From: Chryseobacterium sp. MFBS3-17
Lineage (GTDB): Bacteria > Bacteroidota > Bacteroidia > Flavobacteriales > Weeksellaceae
Direction of reading: 5' to 3'
Assembly: GCF_020687745.1 (NCBI RefSeq)
Contig: NZ_JAJEWK010000012.1
Span: forward strand, 1-64,000
Length of the DNA stretch: 64,000 nucleotides
Shown here: positions 3,893-21,931 of the stretch, in pieces
Position numbering within the stretch: position 1 is the first letter of the stretch
Layout of the letters: each line of letters begins with the position of its first letter
Notes under the pieces: generated by a model
Seen by the model: the letters and a program-made list of their open reading frames with translations, nothing else
Database searches by the model: none
What the model was told of the DNA's origin: nothing
Position numbers and translations under genes: made by a program

Positions 3893-4866
3893 TGAAGAAC
3901 ATTCTCATCACCGGAGGGGCCGGTTTTATCGGGTCCAATTTGTGTGACCATTTTATTAACAAAGGCTATACGGTAACCTGTCTGGATAATTTTGCCACCG
4001 GGTACCGGCACAATATCGAACACCTGCTGACGCATCCCCAGTTTACCCTCATGGAGGGCGATATCCGCGATATGACTGCCTGCCAAAACGCCTGCGAGGG
4101 TCAGGACTATGTGCTGCACCAGGCCGCTCTGGGTTCGGTGCCACGCTCCATCAATGACCCTGTGACCAGCAATGAGGTGAACGTGAGCGGATTTCTGAAT
4201 ATGCTGGTAGCAGCGCGGGATGCCGGCGTGAAGCGTTTTATCTACGCCGCCAGTTCTTCTACCTATGGCGACTCGGCTTCGCTCCCGAAAGTGGAAGATG
4301 TCATCGGGAAACCACTTTCGCCGTATGCCATTACCAAATATGTAAATGAACTCTATGCCGATGTCTTTGCCAAAACCTATGGCATGGAATGCATCGGACT
4401 GCGGTATTTCAACGTATTCGGTCGTCGCCAAAATACTCGTGGAGCGTATGCAGCGGTTATTCCATTGTTTACCAAACAATTCATTCAACACGAAAGCCCC
4501 ACGATTAACGGCACTGGTGAAAATTCTCGAGATTTTACCTATATCGACAATGTCATACAGATGAATGAACGTGCTATGTTGACGGAAAATGCCGAAGCGG
4601 TAAATACCGTTTACAATACAGCCGTAGGCGACCGGACCAATTTAAATGAACTGGCTGCTTATTTAAAAGAATTCCTCACGGAGTTTGATCCGGCCATCGC
4701 CACGATAGAAATTAAACACGGTCCGAACAGAGTAGGGGATATTCCCCATTCACTGGCAGCGGTAGAGAAGGCGAAAACCTTGTTGGGCTATGAACCGACC
4801 CATAAAATTAAAGAAGGTCTGAAAGAAGCAGTTCAATGGTATTGGGAACATCAGGAGAGGCTGTGA
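3892..4866 (+). CDS. NAD-dependent epimerase, UDP-GlcNAc 4-epimerase type (WbpP/TviC-like)
   Basis: Extended short-chain dehydrogenase of 324 residues. The Rossmann motif GGAGFIGS is at residues 7-14, a catalytic Ser/Thr region SSSTYGDS is near 121-128 and the YAITK catalytic pair near 144-148. Overall similarity to WbpP/TviC-type UDP-N-acetylhexosamine 4-epimerases suggests interconversion of UDP-GlcNAc and UDP-GalNAc, or of their uronic acids. It fits with the 6-dehydrogenase at 5591. It is coupled to wzc by a one-base overlap and is followed by a 700-base repeat region. Substrate is inferred from family resemblance only. Confidence 0.85.
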   Translation: MKNILITGGAGFIGSNLCDHFINKGYTVTCLDNFATGYRHNIEHLLTHPQFTLMEGDIRDMTACQNACEGQDYVLHQAALGSVPRSINDPVTSNEVNVSGFLNMLVAARDAGVKRFIYAASSSTYGDSASLPKVEDVIGKPLSPYAITKYVNELYADVFAKTYGMECIGLRYFNVFGRRQNTRGAYAAVIPLFTKQFIQHESPTINGTGENSRDFTYIDNVIQMNERAMLTENAEAVNTVYNTAVGDRTNLNELAAYLKEFLTEFDPAIATIEIKHGPNRVGDIPHSLAAVEKAKTLLGYEPTHKIKEGLKEAVQWYWEHQERL

Positions 4867-4876
4867 TTCTGAGACT

Positions 4877-4957
4877 CGAGACCAGAAGATTAGAGATTAG
4901 AGATTAGAGATTAGAGATTAGAGAGTGGAGACTGGAGACTGGAGACTGGAGACTGGG
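4877..4957. repeat. Heptamer tandem repeats (GATTAGA)n and (GGAGACT)n
   Basis: About four units of a GATTAGA-type heptamer are followed by about four to five GGAGACT-type heptamers. The second unit is complementary to the AGTCTCC-like units at 540-665, so related arrays flank the first three genes in opposite orientation. Confidence 0.85.
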
Positions 4958-5108
4958 GGAGTGGGAGATGAGGAGCGATGACAAAACGATGAAGCGAAAA
5001 CCAAAAACAACAAATGAGATCCTTCGGTTACGCTTCTGAGCTACGCTCGCAGACTACGTCTGTACTCAGGATGACAATGTTCGACTCTTAGGATAACGAC
5101 ACGAATTA

Positions 5109-5362
5109 ATGAAAACCCGGCAAAAAAAATGACATAGGAAACGGAGGCGTTAAAAAACCGAAGGTTCGCCGATTCCATTAAAAAAATAAACCAGCAGAGA
5201 GGCAAAAATGCTTTACTCTACAGAAGTCAAAATAACCAGCATGTAAAGCGAGCCTGATCATCAACTAACGAAACTTTCGTACTATGAGCGAGCGAGTTTA
5301 GAATCATCAGGATTCAGTTCCATTTTTTAGCCGAGTTTCCAGGTCTTGATTTTTTGATTCTT
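5109..5362. repeat. Long inverted repeat, right copy (IR-B)
   Basis: Reverse complement of 1-252 over its whole visible length. The best-matched part spans 5130-5255 and the end near 5339-5362 is also well matched. Together the copies bracket wza, wzc and the epimerase. Confidence 0.85.
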
Positions 5363-16714: not shown

Positions 16715-17323
16715 ATGTTATATCAAAACTATATCAAGCGAGTTTTTGATTTCCTAATCGCTTTAGTTGGGTTAATCTGTTTATCTCCAATTTTTATTTT
16801 GGTAACGATTGGTTTATATTTTGCCAATCAAGGAAAACCGTTTTTCTTTCAAGCTCGTCCGGGTAAAAACGAACGCATCTTTAAAATCATAAAGTTTAAA
16901 ACCATGAGCGATAAAAAAGATGTACATGGTAATTTACTGTCTGATGCCGATCGCCTGACATCAATTGGCGCATTCGTGCGGAAAACCTCTTTAGACGAAC
17001 TCCCCCAACTCATCAATGTGCTGAAAGGAGATATGAGTTTGATTGGTCCGCGGCCGTTATTGCCTCAATATTTACCTTTGTATAATGCAGAGCAGAAAAG
17101 AAGACATGAAGTCCGTCCGGGAATTACCGGCTGGGCACAGGTCAATGGCCGAAATGCCATCAGCTGGCAACAGAAATTTGAATATGATGTCTGGTATGTG
17201 GATCACCTTTCTTTTGCCACAGATATAAAGGTTTTTTTAATGACCTTTAAAAAAGTTTTTAGAAGCGAGGGAATTAGTCAGGAAGGACAAGCGACAGCAG
17301 AGCCTTTTAATGGTGATAATTAA
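16715..17323 (+). CDS. Initiating sugar-phosphate transferase, PglC-like
   Basis: Monotopic phosphoglycosyl transferase of 202 residues that would move a sugar phosphate from a UDP-sugar onto undecaprenyl phosphate. There is one N-terminal membrane segment ([24 protein letters not shown]) and the family core: [51 protein letters not shown]-type region at about 90-115, and [14 protein letters not shown]. Base composition returns from very A+T-rich to normal within the first part of this gene. It ends in AEPFNGDN, a tail that reappears downstream at 17630-17654. It would pair with the PglD-like gene at 17666. Confidence 0.9.
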
Positions 17324-18313: not shown

Positions 18314-18326
18314 AATAGGGAAGTAG

Positions 18327-18425
18327 TTTACTATTGGTGCAGGTACTGTTATTATTAATGATATTCCTGATGGGGCAACCGTTGTAGGTAACCCCAGCAG
18401 AATCATCAAAATAAAACAACCATGA
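18327..18425 (+). pseudogene. 3' stump of a second PglD-like acetyltransferase
   Basis: After a TAG at 18324, an open frame reads FTIGAGTVIINDIPDG and then VVGNPSRIIKIKQP before TGA (18423-18425). This is the characteristic last turn and tail of a hexapeptide acetyltransferase, and it aligns with the end of the intact gene just upstream (VGAGAVVSKSLPAK, then VGIPAKPIKF). The rest of the gene is missing. Its stop overlaps the next ATG as in an operon, suggesting the lost gene once directly preceded the 98-residue protein gene. Confidence 0.7.
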
Positions 18426-18718
18426 AAAACGTTTTCTTTCTTTTCGTTGTTAGTCTTTGGGTATCTTTTTCAGGTATTGCACCCGTTGCAGGAAGTCAGC
18501 TACTTGTAGAAAAAGTTGCGGTCAAAGAACAAGTAGTGTACACTACCAAAACAGGGAAGAAATTTCACCCGAGCAGTTGTCACCACCTGAGAGCCAGTAA
18601 AATTAAAACAGACCGTACAAAAGCTTTGCGTGCCGGCTATACCGCATGCAAAGTGTGTAAACCCTGCAGCGCCAGTCCTGAAGTCCTGGCTCGTTTAAGG
18701 CTTCAGACTTTGAAATAA
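18422..18718 (+). CDS. Small secreted protein with Ada-like Cys motif
   Basis: A 98-residue protein with a signal peptide (VFFLFVVSLWVSFSGIAPVAG, cleavage near 25). The mature part contains TKTGKKFHPSSCHHLRAS followed by AGYTACKVCKPC. This is the Cys/His arrangement found in small Ada-type metal-binding modules and at the ends of some secreted nucleases, so zinc binding is likely. Enzymatic function is unknown. The ATG overlaps the stop of the acetyltransferase stump. It is followed by the 22-bp repeat array. Confidence 0.7.
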   Translation: MKNVFFLFVVSLWVSFSGIAPVAGSQLLVEKVAVKEQVVYTTKTGKKFHPSSCHHLRASKIKTDRTKALRAGYTACKVCKPCSASPEVLARLRLQTLK

Positions 18719-18734
18719 TCTGCAAATGATTCCC

Positions 18735-18881
18735 TGTAATTTCAAAATTCACTTCATGTAATTTCAAAATTCACGGTTTGTAATTTCAAAATTCATTGCT
18801 TTTAATTTCAAAATTTACTTCATGTAATTTCAAAATTAGCCTCTTGTAATTTCAAAATTTGTCCTGTGTAATTTTAAAATT
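18735..18881. repeat. Seven direct repeats with exact 22-bp period (putative operator array)
   Basis: The 15-base core TGTAATTTCAAAATT starts at 18735, 18757, 18779, 18801, 18823, 18845 and 18867. Copies 4 and 7 carry a substitution (TTTAATTTC; TGTAATTTTAAAATT). The 7 bases between cores vary. The core contains an imperfect palindrome around AATTTCAAAATT. The last copy ends six bases before the -7 box of the AAA ATPase gene. The 22-bp phase puts all copies on one face of the helix. Confidence 0.9.
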
Positions 18882-18886
18882 AATTG

Positions 18887-18894
18887 TACATTTG
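18887..18894 (+). promoter_or_regulatory. -7 box (TACATTTG) for first AAA ATPase
   Basis: Matches TAnnTTTG, immediately after the repeat array and 20 bases before the ATG at 18914. The -33 region would fall in the last repeat copy, so a protein bound to the array could block or steer transcription. Confidence 0.6.
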
Positions 18895-18913
18895 TATTGA
18901 AATTCAATGTACT

Positions 18914-20077
18914 ATGTCATTATTCAGAAATATAAAATTTCCCATACAGGATTTGTTAGGTAAGTATCCTGTTGTTGCTGTTACCGGACCTCGGCAATCC
19001 GGCAAAACAACGATGCTCAAAACCGAATTCCCCGATTATCGTTATGTCAATCTCGAGAACCCCGATATGCGTTCGTATGCCGAAAAAGACCCGAATGGTT
19101 TTTTGGCAGAGTTTGACAAGTTTGTGATTTTTGATGAAGCACAAAGAGTACCGCATTTGTTTTCGTACATACAATCCATTGTAGATGATTCGGGAATTAT
19201 GGGGCAGTTCATCTTGTCGGGTTCTCAAAACTTCCATTTGATGCAGAGTATTACCCAAAGTTTGGCAGGTAGGGTGGCGATTTTTAAGTTGTTTCCTTTT
19301 GATAACAATGAAATGAAATCAGCCGGTTGGCTCAACGAAGATGATTTTTTATACAGTTTAGTCAAAGGGTTTTATCCTGCCATTTACGACCGGGGCATTC
19401 CGTCAAAAACATTTTATGCGAATTATGTGCAGACTTATATTCAACGGGACGTAACCGAATTAATCAACATTCGCAATATGCGTTTGTTTCAGAATTTCCT
19501 GGCTTTATGTGCTACCCGGGCAGGGCAATTGCTCAATCTGAATGCGTTGGCAAACGAATGTGGAATCACTCAGCCTACGGCAAAAGCGTGGTTATCGGCT
19601 TTGGAAAACAGTTATATCGTTTATCAGTTGTATCCGTATTACAAAAACTTTAGTAAACGCATCGTCAAAACCCCAAAATTGTATTTTTATGATTCGGGAT
19701 TGTTGTGCTATTTGTTGAAAATAACCGATGAGAAACAACTGCGAACCCATTCTCTGAAAGGATGTCTGTTTGAAAATATGATGATCGCCGAATACATCAA
19801 ACAGATGTCGCACAAAAACGTGGTGGACGACCTTTGGTTTTGGAGAGATTCTTCGGGCAATGAAGTGGATTTTTTAATTGAAAACGACAAAGGTTTCCGG
19901 ATTGTGGAGTTCAAAGCTTCTATGACGGTGATGCCTGATATGTTTAAAGGAATGGAAAAGTTTCAGCAACTTTCGGGCTGGAAAGATCTGGACAAAGCTT
20001 TGGTTTACGGCGGAAATGACCGGCAAAACCGGACAGCAGGAAAAGTAATCCCCTGGAAAGAATTTGGGGTGGAGTGA
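18914..20077 (+). CDS. AAA family ATPase with DUF4143 (PD-(D/E)XK-like) C-terminal domain
   Basis: A 387-residue protein. The N-terminal AAA_14-type ATPase has Walker A GPRQSGKT (25-32), Walker B FVIFDEAQ (about 70) and sensor-like FILSGSQNF. The middle region LNALANECGITQPTAKAWLSALENS looks like a winged helix. The C-terminal DUF4143 region has NEVDFLIE, then RIVEFKAS, the D...ExK pattern of the PD-(D/E)XK nuclease fold. The start is taken at 18914 because upstream codons lie in the promoter. Biological role is not established for this family. It breaks up the PglC-PglD-PglE-PglF set. A second, different ATPase of the same architecture follows. Confidence 0.87.
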   Translation: MSLFRNIKFPIQDLLGKYPVVAVTGPRQSGKTTMLKTEFPDYRYVNLENPDMRSYAEKDPNGFLAEFDKFVIFDEAQRVPHLFSYIQSIVDDSGIMGQFILSGSQNFHLMQSITQSLAGRVAIFKLFPFDNNEMKSAGWLNEDDFLYSLVKGFYPAIYDRGIPSKTFYANYVQTYIQRDVTELINIRNMRLFQNFLALCATRAGQLLNLNALANECGITQPTAKAWLSALENSYIVYQLYPYYKNFSKRIVKTPKLYFYDSGLLCYLLKITDEKQLRTHSLKGCLFENMMIAEYIKQMSHKNVVDDLWFWRDSSGNEVDFLIENDKGFRIVEFKASMTVMPDMFKGMEKFQQLSGWKDLDKALVYGGNDRQNRTAGKVIPWKEFGVE

Positions 20078-20095
20078 ACGGTTTTGGTTAATTTT

Positions 20096-20142
20096 GCACT
20101 CTGACAGTGCAAATTATCATGAAAAACGCACTGTGACAGTGC
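20096..20142. promoter_or_regulatory. Two palindromic operator-like sites, 32 bp apart
   Basis: Sites GCACTCTGACAGTGC (20096-20110) and GCACTGTGACAGTGC (20128-20142). The second is a perfect palindrome apart from its central base, and each is followed by AAA. They start 32 bp apart, about three helical turns. The second overlaps where the -33 region of the next promoter should be. Confidence 0.8.
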
Positions 20143-20151
20143 AAAATATAC

Positions 20152-20159
20152 TATATTTG
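20152..20159 (+). promoter_or_regulatory. -7 box (TATATTTG) for second AAA ATPase
   Basis: Exact TAnnTTTG match, nine bases after the second palindrome and 14 bases before the ATG at 20174. Confidence 0.65.
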
Positions 20160-20173
20160 TATAAAAAGTAGAA

Positions 20174-21343
20174 ATGGACACTTTATTTGAATATTCCAAT
20201 CGTTTGATTTCCGGGGTAGATACGGCATTTATCCGTTATTCCTATCATCAGATCAATTGGCAAAACAGATTGGTTGGACTCATCGGTCCCCGGGGTGTCG
20301 GAAAAACAACTTTGGTCTTACAGTACATCAAAAATAATCTCAACATTCATCAGACTTTATATGTTACCGCCGAAGATTTTTATTTTGCCAAAAATCGGCT
20401 GATCGATTTGGCAGATGCTTTTGTGAAATCAGGAGGGAAATATTTGCTTATAGACGAAATACACAAATACCCGGATTGGTCGAAAGAATTGAAATTGATT
20501 TATGACTATCACAAAGAGCTGAAAATGGTTTTTACAGGTTCTTCGGTGCTTGATATCAAAAAAGGCAGTTCCGATTTAAGCCGCAGAGCAGTGGTTTATG
20601 CCATGCAGGGATTATCATTTCGGGAATATTTGGGGCTTTTTCATCAGTTAGAAGTTTCGAAATTCAGTTTAGAAGAAATTCTGAATCATCAAGTTGATTT
20701 GCCGCAAATTCCGCATCCATTGCCGTTGTTTGATGATTATCTGAAAAGAGGGTATTATCCCTTTGCCATAGAAGATGATTTTGATCTGCGCTTACAGCAG
20801 GTGGTGAGTCAGACCCTGGAAAGCGATATCCCGACTTATGCAGATATGAATGTGTCAACAGGCAGAAAGCTAAAGCAACTGTTAGCCGTTGTGGCAGAGA
20901 GTGTTCCGTTTAAACCCAATATGAGCAAAATTGCTGAAATGCTCAATGTCAGCCGAAACAACATCGCAGATTATCTCCTTTATATGGAAGAGGCAGGAAT
21001 GGTGGCACAGTTGAGAAATGAAACGGGAGGAATCCGTGGATTAGGAAAGTTGGAAAAAGTTTATTTGGACAATACCAATTTGGTGTATAACTTAGCCAGC
21101 GAAAACCAGAACACAGGAAACGTCAGAGAAACTTTTTTTCTGAATCAGTTAAGGATTGCTCATCAAGTGGTTTCATCATCATTGGCAGATTTTAGAATTG
21201 ACCATGTGGAATTTGAAGTAGGAGGAAAAAACAAAGGACTAAAACAAATAAAAAATGCTGAAAAAGGCTTTGTAGTCAAAGCCGATATCGAAAAAGGTTA
21301 TCTCAATACGATACCATTATGGCATTTTGGATTGATGTATTAA
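20174..21343 (+). CDS. AAA family ATPase, second and divergent copy
   Basis: A 389-residue protein. Walker A is GPRGVGKT (38-45), Walker B is KYLLIDEIHKYP (about 92-103) and the sensor-like strand is KMVFTGSSVLD. A likely winged-helix region is NMSKIAEMLNVSRNNIADYLLYMEEAGM. The C-terminal part has VEFEVGGKNKG, which could supply the E-x-K of a nuclease-like fold. Sequence differs clearly from the 18914 protein but the layout is the same. It has its own promoter and palindromic sites, so it is regulated separately. Function unknown; a regulatory or defence role is speculation. Confidence 0.85.
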   Translation: MDTLFEYSNRLISGVDTAFIRYSYHQINWQNRLVGLIGPRGVGKTTLVLQYIKNNLNIHQTLYVTAEDFYFAKNRLIDLADAFVKSGGKYLLIDEIHKYPDWSKELKLIYDYHKELKMVFTGSSVLDIKKGSSDLSRRAVVYAMQGLSFREYLGLFHQLEVSKFSLEEILNHQVDLPQIPHPLPLFDDYLKRGYYPFAIEDDFDLRLQQVVSQTLESDIPTYADMNVSTGRKLKQLLAVVAESVPFKPNMSKIAEMLNVSRNNIADYLLYMEEAGMVAQLRNETGGIRGLGKLEKVYLDNTNLVYNLASENQNTGNVRETFFLNQLRIAHQVVSSSLADFRIDHVEFEVGGKNKGLKQIKNAEKGFVVKADIEKGYLNTIPLWHFGLMY

Positions 21344-21379: not shown

Positions 21380-21931
21380 ATGCTTGTCAAACGACTTTTC
21401 GACTTTATCTTATCGCTGGTGCTTCTGGTGCTGCTGAGTCCGGTGCTGATTGCCGGTTATATGGCGGCAAGTCTGGATACCCGCTCCGGCGGTATTTTTA
21501 CCCAGAAAAGAGTGGGGCAGTATGGCCGTCTGTTCATCATCTATAAACTGAAAACCGTGCATCCGGTGACCCGCACCATTTCCCCGCTGGGTCGTTTCCT
21601 GCGCCGCTCCAAGATTGATGAACTTCCCCAGCTGGTGAATGTGCTGAAAGGCGAGATGTCGTTCGTAGGACCCCGGCCGGATCTGCCCGGTTATTATGAT
21701 ACCCTTACCGGCGAAGACCGGAAGGTGCTGGAGCTGAAACCGGGAATTACCTCGGAAGCGAGCATTAAATATGCAGATGAAGAGGTTTTGCTGGCCGCTA
21801 AAGAGAACCCGCTGAAGTACAATGATGAGGTCCTGTTTCCGGATAAGGTAAAGATGAACCTGGACTATTACCACCGGCGTTCCTTCTGGCTGGATTTGCA
21901 GATCATGCTGCGCACGGTATGGCGTAAATAA
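21380..21931 (+). CDS. Initiating sugar-phosphate transferase (second PglC/WbaP-like)
   Basis: Monotopic phosphoglycosyl transferase of 183 residues. The N-terminal membrane segment (ILSLVLLVLLSPVLIAGYMA) is followed by FTQKRVGQYGRLFIIYKLKT, the SKIDELPQLVNVLKGEMSFVG core (about 72-92) and GPRPDLPGYY. The C-terminal end (KPGITSEASIKYADEE) differs from the 16715 enzyme, so substrate specificity may differ. It is preceded at 36 bases by the second ATPase gene and followed by a 500-base spacer before the aminotransferase. Confidence 0.88.
   Translation: MLVKRLFDFILSLVLLVLLSPVLIAGYMAASLDTRSGGIFTQKRVGQYGRLFIIYKLKTVHPVTRTISPLGRFLRRSKIDELPQLVNVLKGEMSFVGPRPDLPGYYDTLTGEDRKVLELKPGITSEASIKYADEEVLLAAKENPLKYNDEVLFPDKVKMNLDYYHRRSFWLDLQIMLRTVWRK

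Follow-up and report, generated by a model that had tools for sequence, protein, structure and literature searches.

A stretch of 64,000 nucleotides (nt) from Chryseobacterium sp. MFBS3-17 (contig NZ_JAJEWK010000012.1, positions 1 to 64,000; the whole of it is called the window below) carries two AAA ATPase genes, open reading frame 1 (ORF1) and ORF2, placed one behind the other between polysaccharide genes and each preceded by its own set of repeated sites. Comparison with relatives indicates that each ATPase probably regulates its own gene in a sequence-specific manner, most likely as an autorepressor, and that it is carried as a mobile module of a single gene. That each protein binds its own operator array directly is very likely on the sequence evidence, and any specific downstream role assigned to the ATPases is doubtful. 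Both products scored above the curated cut-offs for AAA_14 (PF13173) and DUF4143 (PF13635), the DUF4143 score of ORF2 being weak (31.8 bits, cut-off 28.1), and both matched the PDC-S01 (phage-defence candidate) models of PADLOC, with best values of 1e-98 and 1.7e-28, respectively. The start of ORF1 was taken as the ATG at 18914; the ORF listing opens the same frame at a TTG at 18884.

An earlier note on this DNA, made from the sequence alone, had assigned to each ATPase its own repeats and its own TAnnTTTG promoter, and these were all located (Table 1). TAnnTTTG is the -7 promoter box of Bacteroidota. Tandem Repeats Finder returned a period of 22 and 6.7 copies for 18735-18881, with sites starting at 18735, 18757, 18779, 18801, 18823, 18845 and 18867; five of them are TGTAATTTCAAAATT, one has T for C and one opens with TTTAATTTC, and the array extends about 180 nt upstream of the ORF1 start codon. 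In a test with 200 dinucleotide shuffles, the upstream regions of ORF1 and ORF2 both reached the lowest attainable value (p=0.005; z 37 and 9). Genome-wide, all six zero-mismatch matches to TGTAATTTYAAAATT fell inside array 1, and outside the array there were six one-mismatch matches versus seven for the reversed control pattern, which is the control level. The second motif, with 0 or 1 mismatch, occurred solely at the two palindromes before ORF2, and with 2 mismatches at two further places (C8 and C9) versus one for the control. Neither motif formed an array elsewhere in the 2.64-Mb host genome, and the idea that like sequences elsewhere might be targets was not borne out there, since apart from these two places neither motif rose above the control level. 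Elsewhere in the window, at 551-663 and 4887-4956, lie two microsatellite arrays that do not resemble those of the ATPases; their units are 7 bp long (GTCTCTC and AGATTAG/GAGACTG).

Table 1. Coordinates, in the window, of the two ATPase genes, their putative operators and promoter boxes, and the predicted parts of the proteins
Feature	Position	Strand	Remark
Putative operator array 1: seven 22-bp direct repeats TGTAATTTCAAAATT(N7)	18735..18881	+	upstream of ORF1
TACATTTG, TAnnTTTG box of ORF1	18887..18894	+	5 nt after the end of the last repeat
ORF1 (P0001, 387 amino acids)	18914..20077	+	AAA_14 ATPase, winged helix, DUF4143 nuclease-like domain
ORF1 predicted recognition helix, codons 220-232 (starts QPT)	19571..19609	+	AlphaFold model, column test; residue 221 at its start
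ORF1 C-terminal PD-(D/E)XK-like part, codons 282-365	19757..20008	+	conserved residues, AlphaFold model
Putative operator 2a: palindrome GCACTCTGACAGTGC (15 bp)	20096..20110	.	upstream of ORF2
Putative operator 2b: palindrome GCACTGTGACAGTGC (15 bp)	20128..20142	.	32 bp from 2a
TATATTTG, TAnnTTTG box of ORF2	20152..20159	+	read from sequence
ORF2 (P0002, 389 amino acids)	20174..21343	+	AAA_14 ATPase, winged helix, diverged DUF4143
ORF2 predicted recognition helix, codons 261-273	20954..20992	+	AlphaFold model, column test

Such repeats recur upstream of homologues, as the earlier note had anticipated. We gathered 279 homologues, leaving out ORFs outside 330-460 amino acids or with no credible start, and removed 10 near-identical ones; the remaining 269 were labelled by the best of three queries as family A (ORF1-like, 93), B (ORF2-like, 81) or C (L053-like, 95). 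The upstream test was made on 267 of them (two had less than 110 nt upstream) and the pairwise tests on 266 (one more had less than 150 nt). Within 160 nt upstream, a direct repeat or palindrome at p<=0.005 was present in 179 of the 267 (67%), a total that includes the longer C relatives L033-L036 and L073, whose chosen start by eye lies inside the gene and whose operators were thus not fairly tested. The corresponding control rates were 13/153 (8%) for upstreams of other genes, taken from loci L106-L185 and the window, and 30/210 for downstream regions, where at least one match falls in the region preceding a neighbouring gene of the family, a situation also seen in the window. By family, the positives were 60/92 (A), 41/81 (B) and 78/94 (C); in the first homologue set, direct repeats at p<=0.05 had been found in 39/59 upstreams versus 11/57 downstreams. 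At the latter threshold the period was 22/23 bp in 23 of 46 A cases and 32/33 bp in 38/50 (B) and 69/76 (C), as against 2/17 and 0/17, respectively, in other genes and 1/35 and 6/35 in downstreams. The spacing is helical: 22/23 or 32/33 bp are two or three turns, which places the sites on one face of the DNA. In one locus, L022 (G135), an identical palindrome pair was noticed both upstream and downstream of the ATPase gene, which may reflect a second copy that has decayed or the end of an element.

Protein clusters carry operator motifs of their own. Among the five largest clusters, the TGTAATTTCAAAATT motif was found in 24/24 upstreams of the ORF1 cluster (76 sites), TTTACAAATTGnAAAT in 45/49 of cluster 33, which spans several phyla, TAAATTCnGTCA and GATTnTAATC in 20/20 and 30/33 of the C clusters 38 and 44, and AAAATGCACT, with the half-site GCACT, in 17/18 of the ORF2 cluster. 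When each gene was left out in turn, 24/24, 42/49, 20/20, 29/33 and 17/18 upstreams (ORF1, 33, 38, 44 and ORF2 clusters) scored above the 95th percentile of other genes, and 23/24, 32/49, 19/20, 23/33 and 16/18 above that of the upstreams of other clusters; the first of these tests was weaker in some small clusters (3/5 in cluster 32, 1/2 in cluster 27). Some of the cluster motifs, that of cluster 16 (tataTTTG) for one, probably represent the promoter instead of an operator. The two window genes belong to families with unlike operators, in agreement with the claim that their repeat types do not resemble each other, and the two systems should therefore not cross-regulate.

The geometry of the sites places them near the promoter. 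In the ORF1 cluster the sites have one orientation and lie 22 bp apart in 48 of 55 same-strand neighbours, and 17 of the 24 genes have a TAnnTTTG box, which follows the last site by 3-6 nt in 12 of those 17. In the ORF2 cluster the spacings are 13/14 bp (23/24) and 19 bp (10/11), and the gap to TAnnTTTG is 0-3 nt in 11 of the 15 genes with a box, so that in both clusters the operator stands at a near-fixed distance from its own promoter. Cluster 33 has a single head-to-head pair of sites, 19 bp apart in 28 of 31 such neighbours, with two sites in 28/49 genes, one in 13/49, and the last site ending a median of 19 nt before the start codon. Its upstreams contain TAnnTTTG in 14/49 and a TTGACN-16/18-TAnnnT promoter in 11/49 (0/153 in controls), and in 10 of the latter 11 the TTGAC lies inside a predicted site. 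Spacing in cluster 38 alternates between 18 and 14 bp (21 cases each), and the geometry of cluster 44 is more scattered than that of the other large clusters.

The operators also follow the residues of the protein encoded behind them. Motif similarity rose with protein identity (mean Z 14.6 at 70-90%, 2.5 at 50-60% and about 0.5 at 40-50%), a trend that persisted in pairs with no common flank. When every alignment column was ranked after regressing out overall identity, the top columns were residues 221 and 220 (P0001 numbering) in A and 221, 216, 219 and 220 in C, 221 being first in both, and in B they were R288 and G291 of ORF2, in the wing loop joining the wing strands 277-281 and 293-298, and the helix residue D266. 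Residues 220-232 of ORF1 and 261-273 of ORF2 form the third helix of the winged helix in the AlphaFold models (predicted local distance difference test scores of 95.2 and 89.6). The best four-residue windows, again in P0001 numbering, were 220-223 in A (of 278), 219-222 in C (of 274) and, in B (of 287), 245-248, which aligns to the wing, then 220-223. The covariation with the winged helix that the earlier note proposed to look for is thus present in each of the three families, with its peak in the recognition helix or in the wing, and together with the enrichment it supports the suggestion that each ATPase reads its own array through its winged helix, the recognition helix and wing being the likely readers.

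Among pairs of 50-65% identity in which both members have strong operators, the proportion with similar operators fell as differences accumulated at residues 219-222. With 0, 1, 2 and 3 differences it was 86% (n=76), 43% (81), 23% (120) and 3% (63) in C, where the classes were nearly equal in mean identity (0.55 to 0.53); 79, 70, 23 and 17% in A (mean identity 0.57, 0.57, 0.54 and 0.53); and 71 (n=7), 18, 21 and 11% in B. Even below 45% identity, similar operators were found in 13 of 20 C pairs with an identical tetrapeptide versus 100 of 3322 otherwise. Particular tetrapeptides went with particular sites: each of the 18 A genes with [ST]QPT is preceded by direct repeats in a 22-bp series, the 14 C genes with SKNT have GTCA/TGAC in the last 110 nt (14/14) and a 32-bp series (13/14), DKNT goes with GGTGAA, and KSET with TTTCC..GGAAA. 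L237 (NKIT) has an operator in common with L243 (NKIT) at 41% identity and its nearest relatives (NHHT) have unlike operators, which makes it a possible specificity switch. At the level of whole domains, partial correlations placed the winged helix above AAA in B and C. The residue-to-site code is nevertheless incomplete. It was also considered whether paralogues of one genome avoid common operators, and this was rejected, as no clear difference from the effect of divergence was seen (for example, at 45-55% identity, 4/23 similar pairs within versus 262/1973 between genomes).

Homologues that had not been used in the motifs behaved in the same way. Nine were taken, namely the seven best-listed plasmid matches and two of the eight phage matches, including two pairs of near relatives, and all nine reached the 97th percentile of other genes or higher when scored with whichever of the two A motifs fitted better. 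A protein from a Ruminococcus albus plasmid is 37.6% identical to ORF1 and has an SQPT helix; its upstream scored at the 99.3rd percentile for the ORF1 motif and the 70.6th for that of cluster 33, and contains three ACTTTGAA repeats, 23 bp apart, which by eye lie over TTGACT/TATACT. Gene and operator stay together while the surroundings differ: in tblastx comparisons (1e-10, up to about 1.3 kb a side, pairs with both flanks), any similar flank was found in 7/56 pairs at 70-90% identity, 3/191 at 60-70% and 4/987 at 50-60%. No conserved partner gene of toxin-antitoxin or restriction-modification type was found in this comparison. Being found together at unlike flanks, gene and operator behave as a unit present in many places, and the self-contained system proposed earlier is upheld in this sense. 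Relatives of ORF1 were present on 311 of 72556 plasmid records (E<=1e-20) and 8 of 50697 phage records (E<=1e-5; one match covers just 16% of the query), and DUF4143 matches (E<=1e-15) in 31 of 149 genomes, the host included, with a maximum of 16 per genome. On an Emticicia plasmid (L305), the ATPase gene (4001-5167) was noticed between genes for L-ribulose-5-phosphate 4-epimerase (araD-like) and L-arabinose isomerase (araA), in the opposite orientation to these, which gives the impression of a gene inserted into an arabinose operon.

Both AlphaFold models show a winged-helix-like pattern of helices and strands and a C-terminal alpha/beta part. The PD-(D/E)XK nuclease motif has the form D ... 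(D/E)xK. Among 77 homologues of ORF1, D319, E332 and K334 (E332-x-K334) are invariant and E287 nearly so, which makes a nuclease plausible for the C-terminal part of ORF1; among 66 homologues of ORF2, D339 and K354 are invariant and E348 nearly so, with a spacing that is not ExK. As to the PD-(D/E)XK-like C-terminus ascribed to both proteins in the earlier note, the motif residues are kept in ORF1, and the relatives of ORF2 have a changed motif. The nuclease assignment for ORF1 draws on the accessible part of PMC12988326 as well as on the motif pattern. No solved structure was related to ORF1 by sequence, and a match of ORF2 to solved recA fusion chains, over a 38-residue stretch, was judged not meaningful. 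By fold, ORF1 aligned best with 2qen (Z 15.4, root-mean-square deviation 3.2, 245 residues aligned) and 2fna (Z 14.5, 3.4, 246), followed by the STAND NTPases RPP1 (Z 12.6), CED-4 (11.8) and EfAvs5 (11.2); the alignments to 2fna and 2qen end near residue 269, and the comparison says little beyond residue 303. The ORF2 model matched RuvB, ORC and clamp-loader chains at low TM-scores (0.25-0.40).

Taken together, a STAND-like ATPase may use its central winged helix to read an array of operators that is reserved for it and overlies its own promoter. As an oligomer occupying sites that are spaced by two or three turns of the helix along one DNA face, it would repress its own transcription; its ATP state, or some trigger (infection, for instance), would then release the protein and free the promoter, after which the C-terminal nuclease-like domain could act. 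In this scheme we infer direct binding, oligomers, repression over activation, ATP control and nuclease action. Repression is indicated by sites lying over polymerase contacts, since a protein bound at such promoter-adjoining sites would block polymerase. The reverse, that the ATPase binds its array as an activator, would suit an array reaching about 180 nt upstream of the start codon, and MalT and IniR are described as activators in the accessible part of PMC5760070; given the short gaps to TAnnTTTG in the ORF1 and ORF2 clusters and the -35-like boxes inside predicted sites in 10/49 cluster-33 genes, we regard it as improbable. Slightly less improbable is that the array serves mainly as a working site, for self-recognition, homing, partition or as replication iterons, and that transcription control is secondary. 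Up to seven sites are beyond the need of a simple repressor, the nuclease-like domain has conserved D319, E332 and K334, gene and operator move together and are carried on plasmids, and in L022 the palindromes flank the gene on both sides. What speaks for autorepression over this reading is the near-fixed gap between last site and TAnnTTTG in the clusters of both window genes, the overlap of some cluster-33 sites with a -35-like box, the one or two sites of most cluster-33 genes and the position of the window copy on a 437-kb contig.

Two further explanations leave the ATPase out. Binding of the arrays by a separate host transcription factor is very improbable, because operators mostly differ between paralogues of the same genome (only 21 of 387 pairs were similar), accompany the gene where the flanks are unlike, and change together with residues of the protein encoded behind them. 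Neutral tandem repeats from replication slippage might be suspected from the A+T richness of TGTAATTTCAAAATT and the plain 7-bp arrays elsewhere in the window; the same motif, however, is present in 24/24 cluster members, nearly all at unlike sites, and the enrichment over controls together with the covariation rules this reading out, so that practically no weight remains on it.

Several observations weigh against autorepression through a winged-helix code. At p<=0.005, 88 of the 267 upstreams have no repeat, for some of which misplaced starts account (L033-L036, by eye), and the leave-one-out rates are mildly optimistic, as the starting motifs had seen the held-out gene. The overlap with the -35 box concerns 10/49 genes of one cluster and is not general, 25/49 genes of cluster 33 have neither promoter type, and because the motif of this cluster itself contains TTGAC, only the spacing from TTGAC to TAnnnT is extra evidence. 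The pair counts in the covariation tests are not mutually independent. A single gene, L300, takes part in 10 of the 13 similar low-identity C pairs. A third NKIT gene, L286, is unlike L243 (Z -0.4) and weakly like L237 (2.9), and none of the A pairs whose members have one tetrapeptide in common but belong to different clusters exceeded Z 3 (n=12). High-scoring windows also lie outside the winged helix (95-98, 96-99 and 370-373 in A; 350-361 and 376-379 in C; 122-125 in B), the partial correlation in A is 0.072 for the winged helix versus 0.118 for the AAA domain, and in B AAA identity alone was not above all permutations. Finally, the fold comparison groups the winged-helix region of ORF1 with NLR and CED-4 chains, and in STAND NTPases a winged helix does not necessarily bind DNA.

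The neighbours of the ATPase pair encode sugar transferases, a glycosyltransferase, a PglD-type acyltransferase and a DegT-type aminotransferase, so that the polysaccharide setting given in the earlier note holds; insertion into this locus was not shown, as the joined flanks had no contiguous match in 59 genomes, own included, and hence no empty site was found there. Bac_transf sugar transferase genes lie on both sides of the region (16715-17323 and 21380-21931), which suggests that a polysaccharide cassette was duplicated or recombined. Between the PglD-like gene and a 98-codon ORF, a remnant at 18323-18424 by eye resembles the C-terminal tail of a second acyltransferase (TIGAGTVIINDIPDGATVVGNPSRIIK) and is perhaps a recombination scar beside the pair. 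The 98-amino-acid product (18422-18718) has a signal-like start and paired cysteines (KFHPSSCHHL...TACKVCKPC) and matched nothing in Pfam, NCBIfam or PADLOC at E<=0.001. In another genus (L045, G006, upstream of 1197), an ATPase pair of families C and A was noticed directly behind a PglD-like acyltransferase tail that by eye closely resembles that of the window. Tandem neighbours of this kind are not uncommon, a second family member lying within the fetched flanks in 7 of 76 loci having a kept member (L106-L185), and the window genome has a third, sub-threshold DUF4143 fragment (contig C4:23085-23249, 22.1 bits, 128-amino-acid frame).

The proteins themselves are known and abundant, PDC-S01 being ranked fourth among defences across prokaryotes in the accessible part of PMC12988326; the operator arrays and the residue-to-site code were not found in the literature that could be searched. 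The accessible parts of PMC12988326 and PMC13356809, where PDC-S01 is treated, make no mention of an operator array, autoregulation or a recognition code. In a literature search from which most subscription journals and all bioRxiv preprints fell outside, no title or start of an abstract dealt with upstream arrays or autoregulation of the family, and no settled function for PDC-S01 was found. A defence role rests on the PADLOC label and the literature built on it, and a selfish role fits equally. It is conceivable, if rather unlikely, that PDC-S01-type ATPases are self-addressed mobile genes, in which a private, swappable code (residues 219-222 of the recognition helix and the wing, paired with a phased operator array) would dock a potentially toxic ATPase-nuclease silent on its own promoter and, once freed, the protein would be active against invading or competing DNA, with many specificities like phage immunity groups. 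A private operator with a readable residue-to-base code offers a handle on a very common family: it would allow DNA sites to be predicted from protein sequence, reporters to be built, the release trigger to be searched for and specificity groups to be assigned across phyla. As a natural data set, the family moreover brings together many winged-helix specificities on one scaffold.

Among known systems, the archaeal AAA+ ATPases SSO1545 and PABY2304 (2fna and 2qen) have a fold like that modelled for ORF1, at 16% identity, the nuclease-like part not being covered by the alignment. STAND NTPases (NLRs, CED-4, Avs5, MalT and IniR) have an ATPase and winged-helix arrangement like the one predicted for ORF1. 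MalT and IniR are DNA-binding regulators, and IniR has an SSO1545-like ATPase domain and a C-terminal DNA-binding domain (PMC5760070, accessible part), whereas here the central winged helix is the likely reader and the nuclease-like domain comes after it. In kind, the system would be one of repressor-operator coevolution, in an ATPase with a nuclease-like domain and as a single mobile gene. The repressors of phage immunity groups likewise evolve together with their operators and sort into many specificities, but here a single gene would supply the regulator, an ATPase that also has a nuclease-like domain. The ATPase genes also resemble restriction-modification and toxin-antitoxin genes under autoregulation, in being mobile, probably self-controlled and possibly the source of a harmful nuclease, but these have a second gene, which the ATPase unit lacks: flanks are rarely common to relatives.

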